Assembly: GCA_016213895.1 (NCBI GenBank)
Contig: JACQZJ010000067.1
Span: 1-42,345 of the forward strand
Length of the DNA stretch: 42,345 nucleotides
Reading direction: 5' to 3'
Source: Planctomycetota bacterium
GTDB lineage: Bacteria > Planctomycetota > B15-G4 > JADJEK01
Shown here: piece after piece, positions 5,009 through 19,560 of the stretch
Layout: every line of letters begins with the position of its first letter
Numbering within the stretch: the stretch's first letter is position 1
Translations under genes and position numbers: made by a program
Notes under the pieces: generated by a model
The model's database searches: none
Seen by the model: the letters and a program-made list of their open reading frames with translations, nothing else
Told to the model about the DNA's origin: nothing

Positions 5009-5188
5009 GCGCCCGCCCCCCGCGCGCAAGACCGCGGTTACGAAGCACTTCTGGCGCGGGCGCCGTTCATCCCCCTTGGCGCGCCTGGCGGCGGGACCGA
5101 TGGCCAATGCGCACCCACGATTCCCCAAGCGTGATTCTCCAGCTCCAGGTTGCTAGCGTCTCGTGGTCTTGTGGGAGTCTTCGTCTAG

Positions 5189-6598
5189 GTGCCACACCGC
5201 ATCGAGTTCCGCGTCCGCCCGCTCTTCATGTTGGCGATTCTCGTGGTTGCGGCGTTGCCGGTCCTCGCGACGATCGAGACCAACAGGGCGGCAAACGCGA
5301 TCGACGACCTCCTCGACGAAGGCGTTTCAGCCCTGGGTGAGCTCGACGACTTGATGCAGTCCCTGCTGGACATCCGCAGCGGCGTGCTCGAGATCGCTCT
5401 GCCGGCGGTCGAGGACCGCCATGACCTCGTTCGCACCGTCGAGCAGACGATCCATCGCCTGAGGCAAGACGCGGCCAGCCTCGAGGAGCTCGATGTCGAG
5501 GTTCTGTCAGGCACACGGCGCGCGGAGGAGGTCGCGACGAGCGTGGCCGCAGCCGCCGACGCGGTCTCCGAGTTCTTCGGGACGGCTTGCGACAGCGAGG
5601 TTGACCCCCAGACTCTCGCCCGCGAGGCGCTCCGGGTCTCAGCTCTTGTCGACGACGCGGCTACCGCCATCCAGTCGCTCTCGCGCAGGATCGGCAACGT
5701 GGCCCGCCTCGTCGACAGGGACGTGCCACGCCACCTGCGCATCGCACACTACGCCGGATTGGCGCTCGCCGCGATCGCCCTGGCCGGATTGGGCCTGGTC
5801 CTGGTCGAACGCCTGAAATCCCCTGCATCCCGCCGCCAACTCAAACGGCTGCTGGCCGCCAGCCTGCGCGCCGGCACCTTGCGTGATCCTACCGGCCACC
5901 CGCTCTGCCCTGCGACGGACGAACAGGGCCGCAGCGTCCACCTGCCGGTGCGCATCACCCGTCTCCTCCATCACCGGCCCCTCCATCAGACGTTCATGGC
6001 GGAAATCCACCTGCCCTCCGGCAAGCTTCCGGTCTGGGGCAAGCGCTACACGTTCTTGGGAGCGCTTCGCAGCCTGGTGATCCCGTTGGTGCCGATGTAC
6101 GCCCGGGGATCGTGGCGAATCCTGTGCGCGTTCGACCAACGCGGCGTGACCTCTCCGTCTCCCGTCGCCCTGTGCACGCAGCGGGTACTCGGGATCCCCG
6201 TCGGTCACGTCGTGCTCGCCCGGCACGCCGGCAGGCTCCTCACGGTGAAACGCCGCCTCTTCGGCGCTAAGGCGTTTCACGTTCTCGACCCTTCGGCTCG
6301 CAGCGAATGCCTCGAGCGATTCCGCACCTTCGTCGACGGCATGCACGAAGCCGGCTGCTACCAGATCAAGCTCAGATACGTACATCTCCGCGCTCACAGC
6401 GACGGGTCGTTCGATCCGGCAAGCCCGACCTTCGTTCTCTGCGACCTGGACAAGGTCCTTCACCTGCCGCGCGCTCCGCAGTACTTCCGGAACTGGCTCG
6501 CTCGACACGACCGCCGGCGAATCGCTCGCTCCATGACTGGCGACCTCGGCCAGTCCGAGACAGCGGCGTTTCGCGCCTGGGCTGGTATCCGTGCGTGA
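5189..6598 (+). CDS. membrane receptor-like protein with a degenerate WaaP/Kdo-kinase-like domain
   Basis: 469 residues. A membrane segment at about 10-28 is followed by a roughly 155-residue all-helical region resembling the four-helix sensor bundle of chemoreceptors and histidine kinases, then a second membrane segment (188-206). The cytoplasmic part (about 245-450) follows the order of lipopolysaccharide-kinase folds: a strand with a candidate ATP-binding Lys (K285 in VWGKRY), an Arg-rich helix, GVTSPSPVAL (Gly-x-x-x-P-x-P-x-A-L), HEAG (386-389), then CDLDKV with the metal-binding Asp (D419). Where kinases have the His-Arg-Asp of the catalytic loop this protein reads Gln-Ile-Lys (392-394), while the later loop His (H399) stays in register. 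The start is GTG directly after an in-frame TAG. Codon use is less GC-extreme than in neighbours. Kinase-fold call moderate, function unknown. Confidence 0.65.
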   Translation: MPHRIEFRVRPLFMLAILVVAALPVLATIETNRAANAIDDLLDEGVSALGELDDLMQSLLDIRSGVLEIALPAVEDRHDLVRTVEQTIHRLRQDAASLEELDVEVLSGTRRAEEVATSVAAAADAVSEFFGTACDSEVDPQTLAREALRVSALVDDAATAIQSLSRRIGNVARLVDRDVPRHLRIAHYAGLALAAIALAGLGLVLVERLKSPASRRQLKRLLAASLRAGTLRDPTGHPLCPATDEQGRSVHLPVRITRLLHHRPLHQTFMAEIHLPSGKLPVWGKRYTFLGALRSLVIPLVPMYARGSWRILCAFDQRGVTSPSPVALCTQRVLGIPVGHVVLARHAGRLLTVKRRLFGAKAFHVLDPSARSECLERFRTFVDGMHEAGCYQIKLRYVHLRAHSDGSFDPASPTFVLCDLDKVLHLPRAPQYFRNWLARHDRRRIARSMTGDLGQSETAAFRAWAGIRA

Positions 6599-10494: not shown

Positions 10495-12150
10495 ATGTCG
10501 GGGCAGAAGCAGGCGCTGTTCGCGATCGCGCTCGCCGTAGTGGCCTGCGGCCTGTGGGTGCGCGGCGAGTGCAGGGCGCGCAGCGGCGTCGACCTCAAGC
10601 CGCGGCCCGACGCCCTGGAGTACGCCCTGGCCGCACGCTCCTTCGCGGAGCACGGCTGCCTCGCCCTGCAAATCGGCGCGGCCAGCTACCCGCCGCGCTA
10701 CCCGCCCGGCTTCCCGCTGCTCGCGGCCCCGATCGTCTGGCTGCAGGGCGGAGACCTCTCCCGGGCGTGGCGCGCCGCGCTCGCCTACGGGCTGCTCGGC
10801 CTGCTGCTCGCCTGTCTCCTCGGCCACCTTCTGGAGGGGCTCACGGGCGCGCTCTGCGCCGGCCTGATCCTCGCCCTCTCGCCCGAGGCAGTGTCCTCGT
10901 CCGTGACGCTCATGAGCGAGACCGCGTCGCTCGCGCTCTGGGCCGCGGTCCTGCTCCTGCTTTGCCTCACGGCGCGCGCGCGCGGCGGCGCGCCGCGGGC
11001 GCCCATCCTCCTCGGCGCCGGCCTGCTGCTCGGCGTCGCCGTCACCGTGCGCTACACCAACCTCGCGCTCCTCCTGCCGGCGCTCCTCTTCCTCGGCACG
11101 CGCCATCGCTTCGCGCCGCCCGCGCCGCTCCGGGCCGCGCTGCTCGTGCTGCTGCCCGCGCTCCTCGGCGCCGGCGCCGTGCTCGCCTACAACCAGGCGG
11201 CCTTCGGCGATCCCTTGCGCGACGGCTATCGCTTCTGGGCGCCGCCCGTCTACGACAACCCGGGCCTGGTCTTCTCCCCGCGCTACCTCCTGCATGGCCT
11301 GCAAGGCTACTGGGAGAGCGGCCACCTCTTCGCCTACGGGCGCGCTCTGCTCGGCCTCGACGCCTCGCTCTGGACGCCGTGGATCGCGGCGCTCGCGGCG
11401 CTCGGCGCCGTGCGCACGCTCGTGCGCAGCCGCTTCTGCCCGGTGGCGCGCCTCTGGGCGCTTGCGGCCTGCACCGCCGCGCCGGCCCTGCTCCTCTTCC
11501 ATCTGGCCTATGTCTGGCAGAGCATCCGCTTCCTGACGCCGCTCCTGCTTCTGGTCGCGGTGCTCGCCGGCGCGGGCGCGAAGGCGCTGGCCGCCGGCGC
11601 CGCGCGTCTCATCCCGGGAAGGGCGCGGACCGCCGCGGCCGCGGCCCTCGTCCTCGCCGTCGCCGCGGCGGCACTCCCGCTCGGCCGCCCGCTGCTCGCG
11701 TCCATCTTCCCCGAGAGCCGCATCCCTCCCCTGCCCGCGCTGCTCGAGTCGCTCCCCGGACTGGACGCGCAGCTCGAGCGGCCGGCCCTGGTGATCGTCA
11801 ACTTCCCGGTCACGCTCGCCGTTCCGGCGCTGGGGCGCGGCCGGGAGATCCTGGTCAACGACGCGGCCGCTGCCGATCCGCACCTGAACTTCATCCACCT
11901 CTACCGCCTGCAGGGGAAGGGCGGCGCCACGCCGGGCATCAAGAGCCTGTCCATCGGCAAGGAGCTGCAGGAGGAAGGGCTGCGGCACGTGCTGCTCTAC
12001 GCCGCCGAGGGGCGGCCGGTCTACTACGTCTACTGCGCCGGCGAGGCGCCGGGCGGCGCCGGCATCGAAGAGCTGGGCCGGCGCGCGCGCCTGATCGAGG
12101 CGATCGCGCGGCCGCCGCTCACGGTGTTCCGCGTGGAGGCGCGGGAGTAG
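10495..12150 (+). CDS. GT-C membrane glycosyltransferase (family 39-like)
   Basis: 551 residues with about 9-10 hydrophobic segments. Near the N-terminus the acidic periplasmic loop DALEYALAARSFAEHG and the following YPPRYPPGFP segment match the Asp-containing loop and Tyr-Pro-Pro motif of PMT/ArnT-like GT-C enzymes, which move sugars from lipid-linked donors onto lipids or proteins at the outer face of the inner membrane. The last 120 residues are soluble and unassigned. The gene begins 55 nt after the disrupted peptidase. Donor and acceptor unknown. Confidence 0.75.
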   Translation: MSGQKQALFAIALAVVACGLWVRGECRARSGVDLKPRPDALEYALAARSFAEHGCLALQIGAASYPPRYPPGFPLLAAPIVWLQGGDLSRAWRAALAYGLLGLLLACLLGHLLEGLTGALCAGLILALSPEAVSSSVTLMSETASLALWAAVLLLLCLTARARGGAPRAPILLGAGLLLGVAVTVRYTNLALLLPALLFLGTRHRFAPPAPLRAALLVLLPALLGAGAVLAYNQAAFGDPLRDGYRFWAPPVYDNPGLVFSPRYLLHGLQGYWESGHLFAYGRALLGLDASLWTPWIAALAALGAVRTLVRSRFCPVARLWALAACTAAPALLLFHLAYVWQSIRFLTPLLLLVAVLAGAGAKALAAGAARLIPGRARTAAAAALVLAVAAAALPLGRPLLASIFPESRIPPLPALLESLPGLDAQLERPALVIVNFPVTLAVPALGRGREILVNDAAAADPHLNFIHLYRLQGKGGATPGIKSLSIGKELQEEGLRHVLLYAAEGRPVYYVYCAGEAPGGAGIEELGRRARLIEAIARPPLTVFRVEARE

Positions 12151-12160
12151 CGCGCGCCGC

Positions 12161-12166
12161 TACACT
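12161..12166 (+). promoter_or_regulatory. -10 box (TACACT) of the S9 peptidase gene
   Basis: GCTACACTGCG, the same octamer context as the HD gene promoter, 36 nt upstream of the ATG and followed by a GAAAGGAG ribosome site. Confidence 0.45.
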
Positions 12167-12202
12167 GCGCGCCAAGGCTCCCGGAACGAGAAAGGAGCGC
12201 CC

Positions 12203-14236
12203 ATGAGCCGCGCCGTCCGCACCTTCGTCTTCCTGCTCTGGGCCGCCGCGTTCGCGCGCGGCCAGAACCTGCTCACGCCCGAGCTGCTCTGGCAGCTCGG
12301 CCGCGTGGGCGCGCCCAAGGTCTCTCCCGACGGCCGCTCCCTGGTCTTCGCCGCCACGCGCTATGACCTGGAAAGGGACGCGGGCAACAGCGATCTCTGG
12401 CTGCTGGACACGCAGGAGCGCAGCCTGCGCCGCCTCACGACCCACGAGAAGTCCGACTCGGCGCCGCGCTTCGCCCCGGACGGGAAGCGCATCGGCTTCA
12501 TCTCCGCGCGCGGCGGCGAGCCCCAGGTCTACGCCATCGCTCTCCGCGGCGGCGAGCCCGTGCGCCTGACCAGCGTGAAAGAGGGCGCCGCCGACTTCGA
12601 CTGGTCCCCGGACGGCGCGCACATCTCGTTCACCGCGCGCGTGCGCCTCGACCCGGAGCTGGCGGAAACCTATCCCGACCTGCCCAAGGCGAAAGCGCGC
12701 ATCATCGACCACCTGCTCTACCGCCACTGGACGGAATGGCAGGACGGTACGTACTCGCACCTGTTCGTGCAGCCCGTGGACGGCGGCGCGCCGCGCGACC
12801 TCATGGAAGGCCAGCGCGTCGACACGCCCTTGAAGCCGCACGGCGGCCGCGAGCAGATCGCCTGGTCGCCGGACGGCCGCGAGCTGTGCTACACGGCGAA
12901 GCAGGTCGATCGTCCCGAGGCGAGCACGGACAGCGACCTCTACCTGGTCCCGGCAGCGGGCGGACCGGCGCGCTCAGTCACCGAGGGAATGGACGGCTTC
13001 GACCGCGACCCGCTCTACTCCCCGGACGGGCGCTGGATCGCGTTCCACAGCATGCGGCGCGCCGGCTTCGAGGCGGATCGCGAGCGCCTGATGCTCTACG
13101 ACCGCGGAAGCGGCGCCCTGCGCGAGCTGACGCAGGACTTCGACCACTGGGCCGGCGACACCTGCTGGGCGCGCGACTCGCGCTCGCTCTTCTTCTGCTC
13201 GCCCTTTGCCGGCACGACGCAGATCTTCCAGGTCGACCTCGAGGGGAGGATCACGCAGGTCACGCAGGGGCGGCACGACCTGAAGAGCGTGGCCGCCGGC
13301 GCGGCTGGAAAGGCGCTCTACGCGCGCCGCTCGACCATCGAGCGGCCCTTCGAGATCGTGGCCGTGTCGCTCGAGGACGGCGGCGTCGCCGCGCTCACCG
13401 GCGTCAACGACGAGGTGTTTTCCGGGTTGAAGCTGCCCGCGGTGAGGGAGCGCTGGGTCAAGGCGCGAGACGGCGCCGGCGTGCACTGCTGGGTCGTCTA
13501 CCCGCCCGACTTCGATCCGGCGGTGAAGTACCCGCTCATCCTCTACTGCCAGGGAGGGCCGCAGACGCCGATCGGCCAGTGGTTCAGCTTCTGCTGGAAC
13601 TTCCACCTCATGGCCGCGCGCGGCTACATCGTGGTTGCGCCCAGCCGGCGCGGCCTGCCCGGGTTCGGGCAGGCCTGGAACGACGCCATCAGCAAAGACT
13701 GGGGCGGCGAGGCCATGCACGACTACCTCGCAGCGACCGACGACCTGTTCGCGGAGCCGTACGTCGACCGCGCCCGCGCTGCGGCCATCGGCGCCAGCTT
13801 CGGCGGCTACTCGGTCTTCTGGCTCATGGGGCACGATCAGGAGGACCGCTTCTGCGCGATGGTCGCCCACGCCGGCATCTTCAACCTGGAGAGCTGGTAC
13901 GGGGCGACCGAGGAGCTGTGGTTCCCCGACTGGGACCTCGGCGGGCCGTATTGGGGCGACCCGCGGGCGCGCGCCGCCTACGAGCGCGACTCGCCCCACC
14001 GCTCCGTGGACCAGTGGAATACTCCGCTGCTCATCATCCACGGCGAGAAGGACTTCCGCGTGCCGGTGAGCGAGGGCCTGCAGGCCTTCACCGCGGCCCA
14101 GGCGCAGGGCGTGCCGAGCCGCCTCCTCTGCTACCCGGACGAGGGACACTGGGTCCTCGGCGCGCAGAACGGCCTGCTCTGGCACCGCGTCTTCTTCGAC
14201 TGGCTCGACCGCTGGTGCGAGCCGGCGGGCAAGTGA
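12203..14236 (+). CDS. S9 family prolyl-oligopeptidase-type serine peptidase (secreted)
   Basis: 677 residues: a signal peptide (1-19, cut near FARG), an N-terminal seven-bladed beta-propeller with WD40-like PD40 repeats (VSPDGRSLVF, FAPDGKRIGF, WSPDGAHISF, YSPDGRWIAF at about 35-330), and an alpha/beta-hydrolase domain from about 415. The catalytic triad is readable: Ser532 in GASFGGY, Asp617 in HGEKDFRVP and His649 in DEGHWV. Such dipeptidyl-peptidase-5-like enzymes trim oligopeptides in the periplasm. Length is normal for the family (about 650-700). An AAAGGAG site precedes the ATG. Its own -10 box suggests a separate transcript from the glycosyltransferase. Confidence 0.93.
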   Translation: MSRAVRTFVFLLWAAAFARGQNLLTPELLWQLGRVGAPKVSPDGRSLVFAATRYDLERDAGNSDLWLLDTQERSLRRLTTHEKSDSAPRFAPDGKRIGFISARGGEPQVYAIALRGGEPVRLTSVKEGAADFDWSPDGAHISFTARVRLDPELAETYPDLPKAKARIIDHLLYRHWTEWQDGTYSHLFVQPVDGGAPRDLMEGQRVDTPLKPHGGREQIAWSPDGRELCYTAKQVDRPEASTDSDLYLVPAAGGPARSVTEGMDGFDRDPLYSPDGRWIAFHSMRRAGFEADRERLMLYDRGSGALRELTQDFDHWAGDTCWARDSRSLFFCSPFAGTTQIFQVDLEGRITQVTQGRHDLKSVAAGAAGKALYARRSTIERPFEIVAVSLEDGGVAALTGVNDEVFSGLKLPAVRERWVKARDGAGVHCWVVYPPDFDPAVKYPLILYCQGGPQTPIGQWFSFCWNFHLMAARGYIVVAPSRRGLPGFGQAWNDAISKDWGGEAMHDYLAATDDLFAEPYVDRARAAAIGASFGGYSVFWLMGHDQEDRFCAMVAHAGIFNLESWYGATEELWFPDWDLGGPYWGDPRARAAYERDSPHRSVDQWNTPLLIIHGEKDFRVPVSEGLQAFTAAQAQGVPSRLLCYPDEGHWVLGAQNGLLWHRVFFDWLDRWCEPAGK

Positions 14237-16994: not shown

Positions 16995-17187
16995 TCCTCG
17001 GGCTCGCGAGCGCGCGCCGCGCGCCGCGGTCGAGCAAGGGCCGCACATCGGCCGCGATCTGCTCAATCCACTTCGCCCCGAATCCCGATAAGAGGCCGGC
17101 GAGACGCATCGGACCCGGCAGAGGCGCCGGGCGCCGCAGTGCGTTCTCCCAGCGGATACCACGGATTATCGGATGCTCCGGGGGAAC

Positions 17188-19560
17188 ATGGACCGTCGAC
17201 AGGGAACGGTGGAGCGTGCGGTCACGATCGACTCGCTCCCACTCTCCAACCGGACGCTTTCCCGGCTGCGGGAAGCGGGCATCGTCTCGGCCGAGGAGCT
17301 CGCGGCGCGCACGGATGACGATCTGCTGGCGCTGCGCGGCTTCGGCCACACCTGTCTGCGCGAGGTGCGCGCGGCCCTGCGCGTGCAGCCGCCGAATGCC
17401 GGCGTCCCCGCCGTGCCGTTCGACGACAGCTCGTTCCCGGGCGACCTGGCCGAGACGCTCCTCGCTCTGCCGCTTCGCCACCTGCCGATCTCGAACCGGG
17501 CGCGCGGCGTGTTCGCGCGTGAGGGGATCGAGACGGTCGCGGACTACGTGCACGCCGGCGCGCGCAGGCTGCTCGAGCTGCGCAACCTCGGCGCCACCAC
17601 GCTCGCGGCGGTGAACCGCGTCATCAACGCCGCGCAGCGCATGCTCGCCCAGGGCGGCGGCGCCGGCGCGCAGCCTTTCCCGGCGCCCGAACTCGTCGGC
17701 GTGGACCTGCGCCTCGACCCGCGCCTCTCCCAGGTGCCGGTCGCCGCTCTCGACCTGCCCCGCCGCGCGCGCCGCGCCTGCCAGGACCTGGGACTGCGCA
17801 CGCTGCGCGACCTCACGCGCGTGTCGGCGAACGAGCTGCTCGTGCGCCGCAACTTCGGCCAGGCCACCCTGCGCCGCATCCAGGGCGAGATGGAGCGCTT
17901 CCTGCACGGTCAGACCGGAAACTGGCCCGAGGACTTCGCGGGCACCCTGGAACAGATCCTGGGCCGCCTGCAGCCCAAGGAAAGGCGCCTGGTCGAGCTG
18001 CGCGAGGGACGCGACCGCGACCAGCCGCACACCCTGACCGAAGCGGGCGCGGCCATGGAGATCACCGAGTCGCGCGCCTGCCAGATCGAGCACTCGGCCT
18101 GGGCCAAACTCAGGCGCTTCAGCGCGGGCATCACCGATCCGGCCGCGGACAACGCCGTCGCCGTCCTGATGCGGCACGGCGGCGTGGCCGATCCCGCTGT
18201 CCTGCAGGACTCGCCTTTCTTCGCCCAGGGCGGCCTGCGGCCGGGCTTCGTCGCGCGCATGCTGGCGCGCCTTCTGCCCCACCGGCTGGCGCGCCTCGCC
18301 GACGGCCGCCTGGCCGCGGTGCCCGCGGCCACGCTGTGCACGCTGGCCGCGCGCCTGCGCAAGCGCCTGCGCCGCTCCACGGAATCGCTCTCCCTGCGCG
18401 CGCTCACGAGCGAAGTGCTGCGAGGGCTCGATCTCGGCGAGGAGCGCCTCGCCCTGGTGCGCGCGCTGTGCGAGGCCTTGTTCGGGCGCGAGGTCGCGGC
18501 CGGTCCGGACGGCGAAGTCCTGGTGCGCACGCAGTGCCAGGGCCTCGGCGACGACCTCAGGCAGATCCTCCTCGCCGAGGGCAAGGCGCTGCACTTCAGC
18601 GAGGTGGCGCAGCGCCTCGCCCTTCCTCCTCTCCTGCGTCTCGGCCTGAGCGAGGAGAAGGTGCGCCTGCGGCTGTGCCGCGACCGCCGCTTCGTGCTGG
18701 TGCGGCGCGGCCTCTACGACCTGCGCGAGCGCTTCTCGGTGCAGGCGAGCCTCAAGACCGCGCTCGCCGACGCCGCGCTGCAGCTCCTCAAGGACTCCGG
18801 CCGCCCCACCTCGGTGGCGCTGCTCGGCGCCGCGCTGCGCGCGCGCTCCCAGTTCGCCGGCGTCAGCGAGTTCGTGCTGGCGGCCGTGCTGCGCGAGGAC
18901 GAGCGCTTCGCGCACCTCGGCCGCGGGACGTTCGCGCCGGCCGGCAGCCGCGCCACCGCCGTCCAGCACGTCTCCGAGATCCTGGAGTCGATCCTCTCCG
19001 CGGCCGGAGGCCCGCTCTCCTACTCCGAGCTGAAGCGGCGCGTGCAGGAGCGCCGCCAGGTGAGCGACGGCGCGATCTCGGCCACGCTCGTCGGCCGCGG
19101 CACGTTCCTGCGCGTGGCGCGCGGCATGTTCGACCTGGCGGAGCGCTACCCGTTCGACGGCGCGGCGCGCGAGCGCATCGCGCGCCAGGCCAGGGAACGC
19201 ATCGCCGCGGCGGGCGGCGTCATGCCGCTCGACCTGCTCGCCGAGCACCTCGACGGCTGCGCGCCTGGACTCGCGGCGCCGCCCGCGGCGATCCTGATCG
19301 GCGACCTGCTGCGCCGCACTGGCGGCTTCGAGTTCCTCGGCAGCGGCTACGTCGGCCTGGCGGGAAGCGATCTCTCCGAGTCGCTGGCGCGCCGCGCGCT
19401 CGACGTGCTGCTGCGCGAGGGAGAGCCGCTCAGGCCGACCGCCATCGCGCGCCGCCTCTCCCTGGACCAGGGAGCCGTCGCGTTGCTCAGGAAGATCCTG
19501 CGCAGCGATCGCCGCTTCCTGACCCGCCCGGAGGGCCGCTTCAGCCCCGCGCCGAGCTAG
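17188..19560 (+). CDS. alpha-CTD repeat / sigma-region-4 / multi-winged-helix protein
   Basis: 790 residues from the ATG preceded by GGGGGA; another ATG lies 15 nt upstream (17173), and the residue numbers here count from it. Three helix-hairpin-helix repeats like the RNA polymerase alpha C-terminal domain: 19-70 (LPLSNRTLSRLREAGI...LRGFGHTCLREV), 101-157 (LPISNRARGVFAREGI...LRNLGATTLAAV) and 189-244 (VRRNFGQATLRRI). At 257-317 a sigma70 region-4-like HTH (LQPKERRLVELREG...ITESRACQIEHSAWAKLRRF). From about 455 to the end about five winged-helix units, each closing with a beta-hairpin such as RRGLYDLRE, GRGTFAPAG or ARGMFDLAE, resembling HARE-HTH/RpoE-delta domains. No membrane segment or enzyme motif. 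Likely a DNA- or RNA-polymerase-binding regulator; target unknown. Confidence 0.75.
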   Translation: MDRRQGTVERAVTIDSLPLSNRTLSRLREAGIVSAEELAARTDDDLLALRGFGHTCLREVRAALRVQPPNAGVPAVPFDDSSFPGDLAETLLALPLRHLPISNRARGVFAREGIETVADYVHAGARRLLELRNLGATTLAAVNRVINAAQRMLAQGGGAGAQPFPAPELVGVDLRLDPRLSQVPVAALDLPRRARRACQDLGLRTLRDLTRVSANELLVRRNFGQATLRRIQGEMERFLHGQTGNWPEDFAGTLEQILGRLQPKERRLVELREGRDRDQPHTLTEAGAAMEITESRACQIEHSAWAKLRRFSAGITDPAADNAVAVLMRHGGVADPAVLQDSPFFAQGGLRPGFVARMLARLLPHRLARLADGRLAAVPAATLCTLAARLRKRLRRSTESLSLRALTSEVLRGLDLGEERLALVRALCEALFGREVAAGPDGEVLVRTQCQGLGDDLRQILLAEGKALHFSEVAQRLALPPLLRLGLSEEKVRLRLCRDRRFVLVRRGLYDLRERFSVQASLKTALADAALQLLKDSGRPTSVALLGAALRARSQFAGVSEFVLAAVLREDERFAHLGRGTFAPAGSRATAVQHVSEILESILSAAGGPLSYSELKRRVQERRQVSDGAISATLVGRGTFLRVARGMFDLAERYPFDGAARERIARQARERIAAAGGVMPLDLLAEHLDGCAPGLAAPPAAILIGDLLRRTGGFEFLGSGYVGLAGSDLSESLARRALDVLLREGEPLRPTAIARRLSLDQGAVALLRKILRSDRRFLTRPEGRFSPAPS

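Follow-up and report, generated by a model that had tools for sequence, protein, structure and literature searches.

A predicted membrane-anchored pseudokinase related to lipopolysaccharide sugar kinases in the Planctomycetota

The gene and its surroundings

The window analysed here, that is, the whole stretch of DNA under study, comprises 42,345 nucleotides (contig JACQZJ010000067.1) of a 5.5 Mb genome assembly from the phylum Planctomycetota (GCA_016213895.1). At positions 5189-6598 of the forward strand lies an open reading frame of 469 amino acids that begins with GTG at 5189, and these coordinates, taken from a preliminary description of the DNA, are correct. A TAG stop at 5186 stands immediately 5' of the GTG codon, so 5189 is the earliest start possible, and the next plausible start is ATG at 5228. 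The frame has the GC distribution by codon position of coding DNA, and a relative of the same genus, hereafter the sister species, carries an orthologue with 79% identity at the same genomic position, likewise between genes for a Na+/H+ antiporter and a VWA protein. Between these two species dN/dS is about 0.22 over the whole protein, 0.17 in the N-terminal helical bundle and 0.31 in the kinase-like domain, and the protein is consequently considered to be under purifying selection. ORF 5189-6598 is a genuine gene, and its product is a predicted membrane-anchored pseudokinase resembling the Kdo/WaaP kinases.

The neighbouring genes in the window encode the Na+/H+ antiporter, VWA and HD proteins, none of which is a glycan gene, and no conserved gene neighbourhood was found across the clade of homologues described below. 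Among the 14 genomes of its class, two have the full architecture, both of one genus, so that its distribution is patchy. Two other frames of the window may be mentioned: one on the forward strand (17092-19557) combines three RNA polymerase alpha C-terminal domains with sigma-70 region 4, and a short one on the reverse strand (1637-2320; GKSGAILLGFPDTTQDTDLF) was judged by eye to be nucleotidyltransferase-like.

The codon use of the gene differs from that of its neighbours, as had been noticed from the sequence at first reading. With a GC3 of 0.825 (ten neighbours: 0.90-0.96) and a mean log2 relative codon usage of 0.29 (neighbours: 0.66-0.93), it is the most atypical of the eleven genes compared, both halves of the gene being atypical. 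The preliminary description took this as a hint of acquisition, and the odd codon use and the patchy distribution are in keeping with it. A recent transfer into the window species is unlikely, however, because the synteny is kept in the sister species and the orthologue there has a similarly lowered GC3 (0.86 against 0.93-0.97 in its intact neighbours). Any acquisition therefore predates the split of the two species; early entry into the genus is one possibility, weak codon selection on the gene another.

The kinase-like domain and its catalytic loop

The C-terminal part of the protein, about residues 225-469 (5861..6595, forward strand), had been proposed to be a WaaP/KdkA-type domain. In the window protein itself neither PF06293, the Kdo/WaaP lipopolysaccharide (LPS) kinase family, nor any other Pfam family matched this region up to E = 10. 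Six of eight homologues (L047, L048, L011, L013, L019 and L020), in contrast, score above the PF06293 cut-off (21.3 bits), with 31-45 bits and E-values down to 1e-11, while L003 and L049 fall below it. Moreover, a profile built from eight clade sequences matches Pseudomonas aeruginosa WaaP (6dfl) with E = 1.1e-4, the catalytic loops being in register and ungapped. Since most of the kinase N-lobe has a pLDDT below 50 in the full-length model, the domain was modelled alone, which gave a modest model (pLDDT 64, pTM 0.52). Foldseek with this model gave 7wj7 as the best match (E 1.4e-5) and WaaP at E 7e-4; all the top structural matches listed are kinase-fold entries of the PDB. A second aligner superimposed the model on WaaP 6dfl with Z 10.4 over 202 residues at an rmsd of 4.2. 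Being shallow (four sequences), the model speaks for the fold and not for side-chain detail. Taken together, family profiles and model support the view that the cytoplasmic domain is a homologue of the LPS-kinase family with a kinase fold.

The motifs lie where they had first been placed. The beta-3 Lys is K285 in WGKRY (6041..6043), H386 belongs to the HEAG helix, and the metal-site motif equivalent to DFG is D419-L-D421-K422 (6443..6454); H399 and D441 are also present. At the HRD position, however, the protein has Q392-I393-K394 (6362..6370), and K394 aligns with the catalytic Asp163 of WaaP. In the numbering of PMC6147952, H161-R162-D163...H168 of WaaP corresponds to Q392-I393-K394...H399, and D188-L-H-R191 corresponds to D419-L-D421-K422. 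The sister species reads QLK at this position, which rules out a sequencing error or a point mutation as the source of the lost Asp.

The loss extends beyond the genus. In nine clade members from seven genomes the residues at the catalytic Asp position are K, K, S, T, S, R, R, R and R, never Asp in the ungapped alignment, whereas Asp stands there in 12 of 12 related HxD kinase domains, taken from this phylum and genome. No HRD was thus seen in the clade, either in the sister species or in seven further homologues, and the suspicion that the catalytic Asp had been lost was borne out. In a tree calculated without the loop columns a branch with 100/99 support separates the nine Asp-less sequences from the 12 HxD kinases, so a single loss of the Asp is enough to explain them. 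Substitution of this residue is severe in WaaP: the D163A and H161A variants no longer supported growth, although they were made stably at wild-type-like levels (PMC6147952). A pseudokinase is usually defined by the lack of at least one of the beta-3 Lys, the HRD Asp and the DFG Asp (PMC12599244), and by this definition the window protein is a predicted pseudokinase. Absence of the alpha-C Glu was considered as an additional sign of a pseudokinase and dropped, since the apparently active L014 and L006 also seem to be devoid of it.

The alignment of the catalytic loop is not unique, and a working LPS sugar kinase whose Asp has merely been misplaced must be considered. If two residues are deleted in the loop, YDLSPRY of L047 falls in line with the DLHPGN of active kinases, and L047 then keeps an Asp. 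Even so, eight of the nine members are still without it (Gln392 in the window protein; Gln, Arg, Ser or His in the others), and the profile aligns with WaaP without a gap at the loop, so that this explanation appears very unlikely. The loss of the catalytic Asp as a clade-wide trait may be regarded as well supported by the alignments.

D419, D421, K422, D441, R444 and R396, the last being a clade-specific Arg (6374..6376) two residues past the lost Asp, are invariant in all aligned clade members, which come from two planctomycete classes and one further PVC genome. Such constancy argues against a former kinase that drifts without function, as do the preservation of the reading frame and motifs in two species and a dN/dS well under 1. 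The atypical codon use, the patchy distribution and the lower identity between the sister species (79%, where the antiporter reaches 92% and the VWA protein 86%) could be read as decay, which nevertheless seems most improbable.

The same invariant residues could, on the other hand, belong to an enzyme with another active-site arrangement, for example D419, D421, K422 and R396 together with K285, in the manner of SelO, which transfers AMP, or SidJ, which catalyzes glutamylation. SelO shares with the window protein a kinase-like domain that lacks the catalytic Asp and keeps the metal Asp, but belongs to another family and is not known to have a membrane bundle. Both SelO and SidJ act without this Asp (PMC12599244), and the invariance across diverse clade members and the purifying selection in the sister pair are also compatible with catalysis. 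However, ordinary Kdo/WaaP kinases often have equivalents of D419, D421/K422 and D441 too, and these residues may have a structural role; five of the nine clade members carry Arg instead of the beta-3 Lys, and no single conserved residue substitutes for the lost Asp. A different enzymatic activity is thus judged unlikely, and the clade-wide loss of the Asp makes a sensor or scaffold for envelope building likelier than an enzyme.

The membrane helices and the periplasmic bundle

The N-terminal part contains two hydrophobic stretches, as had been proposed, with Kyte-Doolittle maxima in the 19-residue windows beginning at residues 11 and 188. The first transmembrane helix (about residues 11-29; 5219..5275, peak 2.56) and the second (about residues 188-206; 5750..5806, peak 2.32) enclose a predicted periplasmic four-helix bundle of ~155 residues (about residues 30-187; 5276..5749, all on the forward strand). 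Basic residues before the first helix suggest a cytoplasmic N-terminus, and the basic residues flanking the helices on the N-terminal and kinase sides fit a cytoplasmic kinase-like domain. The AlphaFold model has helices at residues 3-70, 77-99, 109-133 and 140-177, and Foldseek with the modelled bundle returned sensory four-helix bundles such as 4k0d and Tsr, with E-values that are not significant and a model that is modest.

The protein had been called chemoreceptor-like, and this holds in part and weakly. It shares with four-helix-bundle sensors (Tsr/Tar and sensor histidine kinases such as 4k0d) the order transmembrane helix, four-helix bundle, transmembrane helix, and a modestly similar predicted bundle. 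It differs from them in having no HAMP, methyl-accepting or histidine-kinase output and no significant sequence match: the Pfam family 4HB_MCP_1 (PF12729) gave E = 0.32 and 11 bits, below the cut-off of 27, and Pfam revealed neither a HAMP nor a methyl-accepting signalling domain in the window protein. In addition, the nearest relative of the bundle is found on a glycosyltransferase. In a search of 392 planctomycete genomes the bundle was detected elsewhere than in its own genus only once, in a sister genus, where a 637-amino acid frame (L024:2128-4038; G003:C533) joins the membrane bundle to a GT4 glycosyltransferase; its bundle is 31% identical to that of the window protein over about 215 residues.

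Eight of the nine clade members have an N-terminal membrane bundle, the exception being L048, a soluble protein of 277 amino acids. The bundles of the six clade members outside the genus have no relation to the window bundle detectable by phmmer or profile comparison, so a single ancestral fusion cannot be claimed. The window protein has in common with the Kdo/WaaP family (PF06293; WaaP and KdkA) the kinase fold, the H..G helix, the D-L-D-K metal motif, the alpha-F Asp and the profile similarity to 6dfl, but differs in lacking the HRD Asp and in its membrane helices and N-terminal periplasmic bundle; five of the nine clade members differ further in the beta-3 Arg. The preliminary description had further contrasted the protein with KdkA as a soluble enzyme, a point that is to be corrected, since KdkA is called membrane bound in the title of the paper by White et al. 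(1999) that PMC1821047 cites.

A possible place in envelope-glycan assembly

LpxC and WaaA-type (Kdo-transferase-type) genes are present in 7 of 7 genomes examined, and lipid A of the LPS type is thus likely to be made. In one genome (G023), an intact kinase of the Kdo/KdkA type (P0001; YHPDLHPGN and LIDFDR) follows an Asp-less membrane homologue at a distance of 85 nt on its downstream side (L023:11192-12181 adjoining 12114-13592, reverse strand), with a PFK gene upstream; this is the one case observed of such a pairing of kinase and pseudokinase. The counterpart of this homologue in G107 is followed downstream by a frame judged by eye to be GT2-like (family 2 glycosyltransferase).

Proteins with two tandem Kdo/WaaP kinase domains appear several times in the phylum (L006, L032, L033 and G000:C22 of the source genome), and a frame on the reverse strand at L047:2190-4325 carries an FGE-sulfatase followed by a histone deacetylase domain and adjoins an MBOAT acyltransferase.

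The protein is probably an inner-membrane pseudokinase that relays signals to, or serves as a scaffold for, the assembly of envelope glycans such as LPS. This reading of a regulator or scaffold is drawn from the loss of the catalytic base beside a preserved metal site, from the membrane bundle and the GT4 fusion, and from the single pairing with an intact kinase. The kinase-like domain would have come from the Kdo/WaaP LPS sugar kinases, and the ancestor shared by the small clade would have lost the catalytic Asp while keeping the metal-binding Asp and the framework of helices. The usual phosphate transfer would be absent, and the domain may still bind a nucleotide or metal, a nascent lipid-linked sugar or glycolipid, or a partner enzyme. 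The periplasmic bundle would pass an envelope signal to, or position, the partner enzymes of LPS or envelope-glycan synthesis, one possible partner being an active member of its kinase family. That the protein reports periplasmic or membrane state, as the preliminary description suggested, is a conjecture within this reading.

In a narrower form of this explanation, whose likelihood overlaps with that of the broader one, the kinase-like domain would be a mere membrane-tethered dock for LPS or glycan enzymes and the bundle an anchor without sensing. The fusion of the nearest bundle relative to a GT4 enzyme and the other clade bundles without detectable shared sequence would suit a dock, and EssB/YukC provides an example of a scaffold among transmembrane pseudokinases (PMC12599244). 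A periplasmic bundle of such a size, however, exceeds the needs of an anchor, and it is better conserved between the sister species than the kinase-like domain (83% against 75% identity), so that a pure dock is regarded as possible and somewhat doubtful. A more specific form of the signalling reading is put forward with greater reserve still: the bundle might sense the state of the envelope and the inactive kinase might control an active LPS kinase or glycosyltransferase, which would constitute an undescribed family of transmembrane pseudokinases. If true, planctomycete outer-membrane glycan assembly would possess a feedback switch contained in one protein, with a sensor module shuffled among glycan enzymes.

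Membrane-bound pseudokinases as such are not new in bacteria. EssB/YukC of type VIIb secretion also sits in the bacterial membrane and has a pseudokinase domain in the cytoplasm, but it belongs to another family and lineage, has one membrane helix and is degraded in all three motifs, whereas the window protein keeps the metal Asp. Mycobacterial MviN (MurJ; ActPs3) is similarly a membrane-tied pseudokinase tied to envelope assembly; its pseudokinase is, however, of the Ser/Thr kinase line and forms part of a large membrane protein that acts in peptidoglycan synthesis. MviN is not known to have a comparable periplasmic four-helix bundle.

In a review on pseudokinases of bacteria, EssB/YukC and MviN are the transmembrane cases named; the bacterial pseudokinases that it covers are of the Ser/Thr kinase line or are the outliers SelO, SidJ and EssB, and it mentions neither lipopolysaccharide nor planctomycetes (PMC12599244). 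A literature search combining pseudokinase, lipopolysaccharide kinase and bacteria gave only a SelO paper, and one combining planctomycetes and pseudokinase gave six papers, none titled on this subject; both covered few subscription papers, so that the absence of a report is weak evidence of novelty. Transmembrane pseudokinases of bacteria are already known, and the variant derived from LPS sugar kinases appears to be new. A clade-wide membrane pseudokinase of this origin would show that small-molecule kinases also become regulators or scaffolds, and the occurrence of the bundle on a glycosyltransferase offers a testable hint that such membrane modules control envelope-glycan synthesis in the Planctomycetota.
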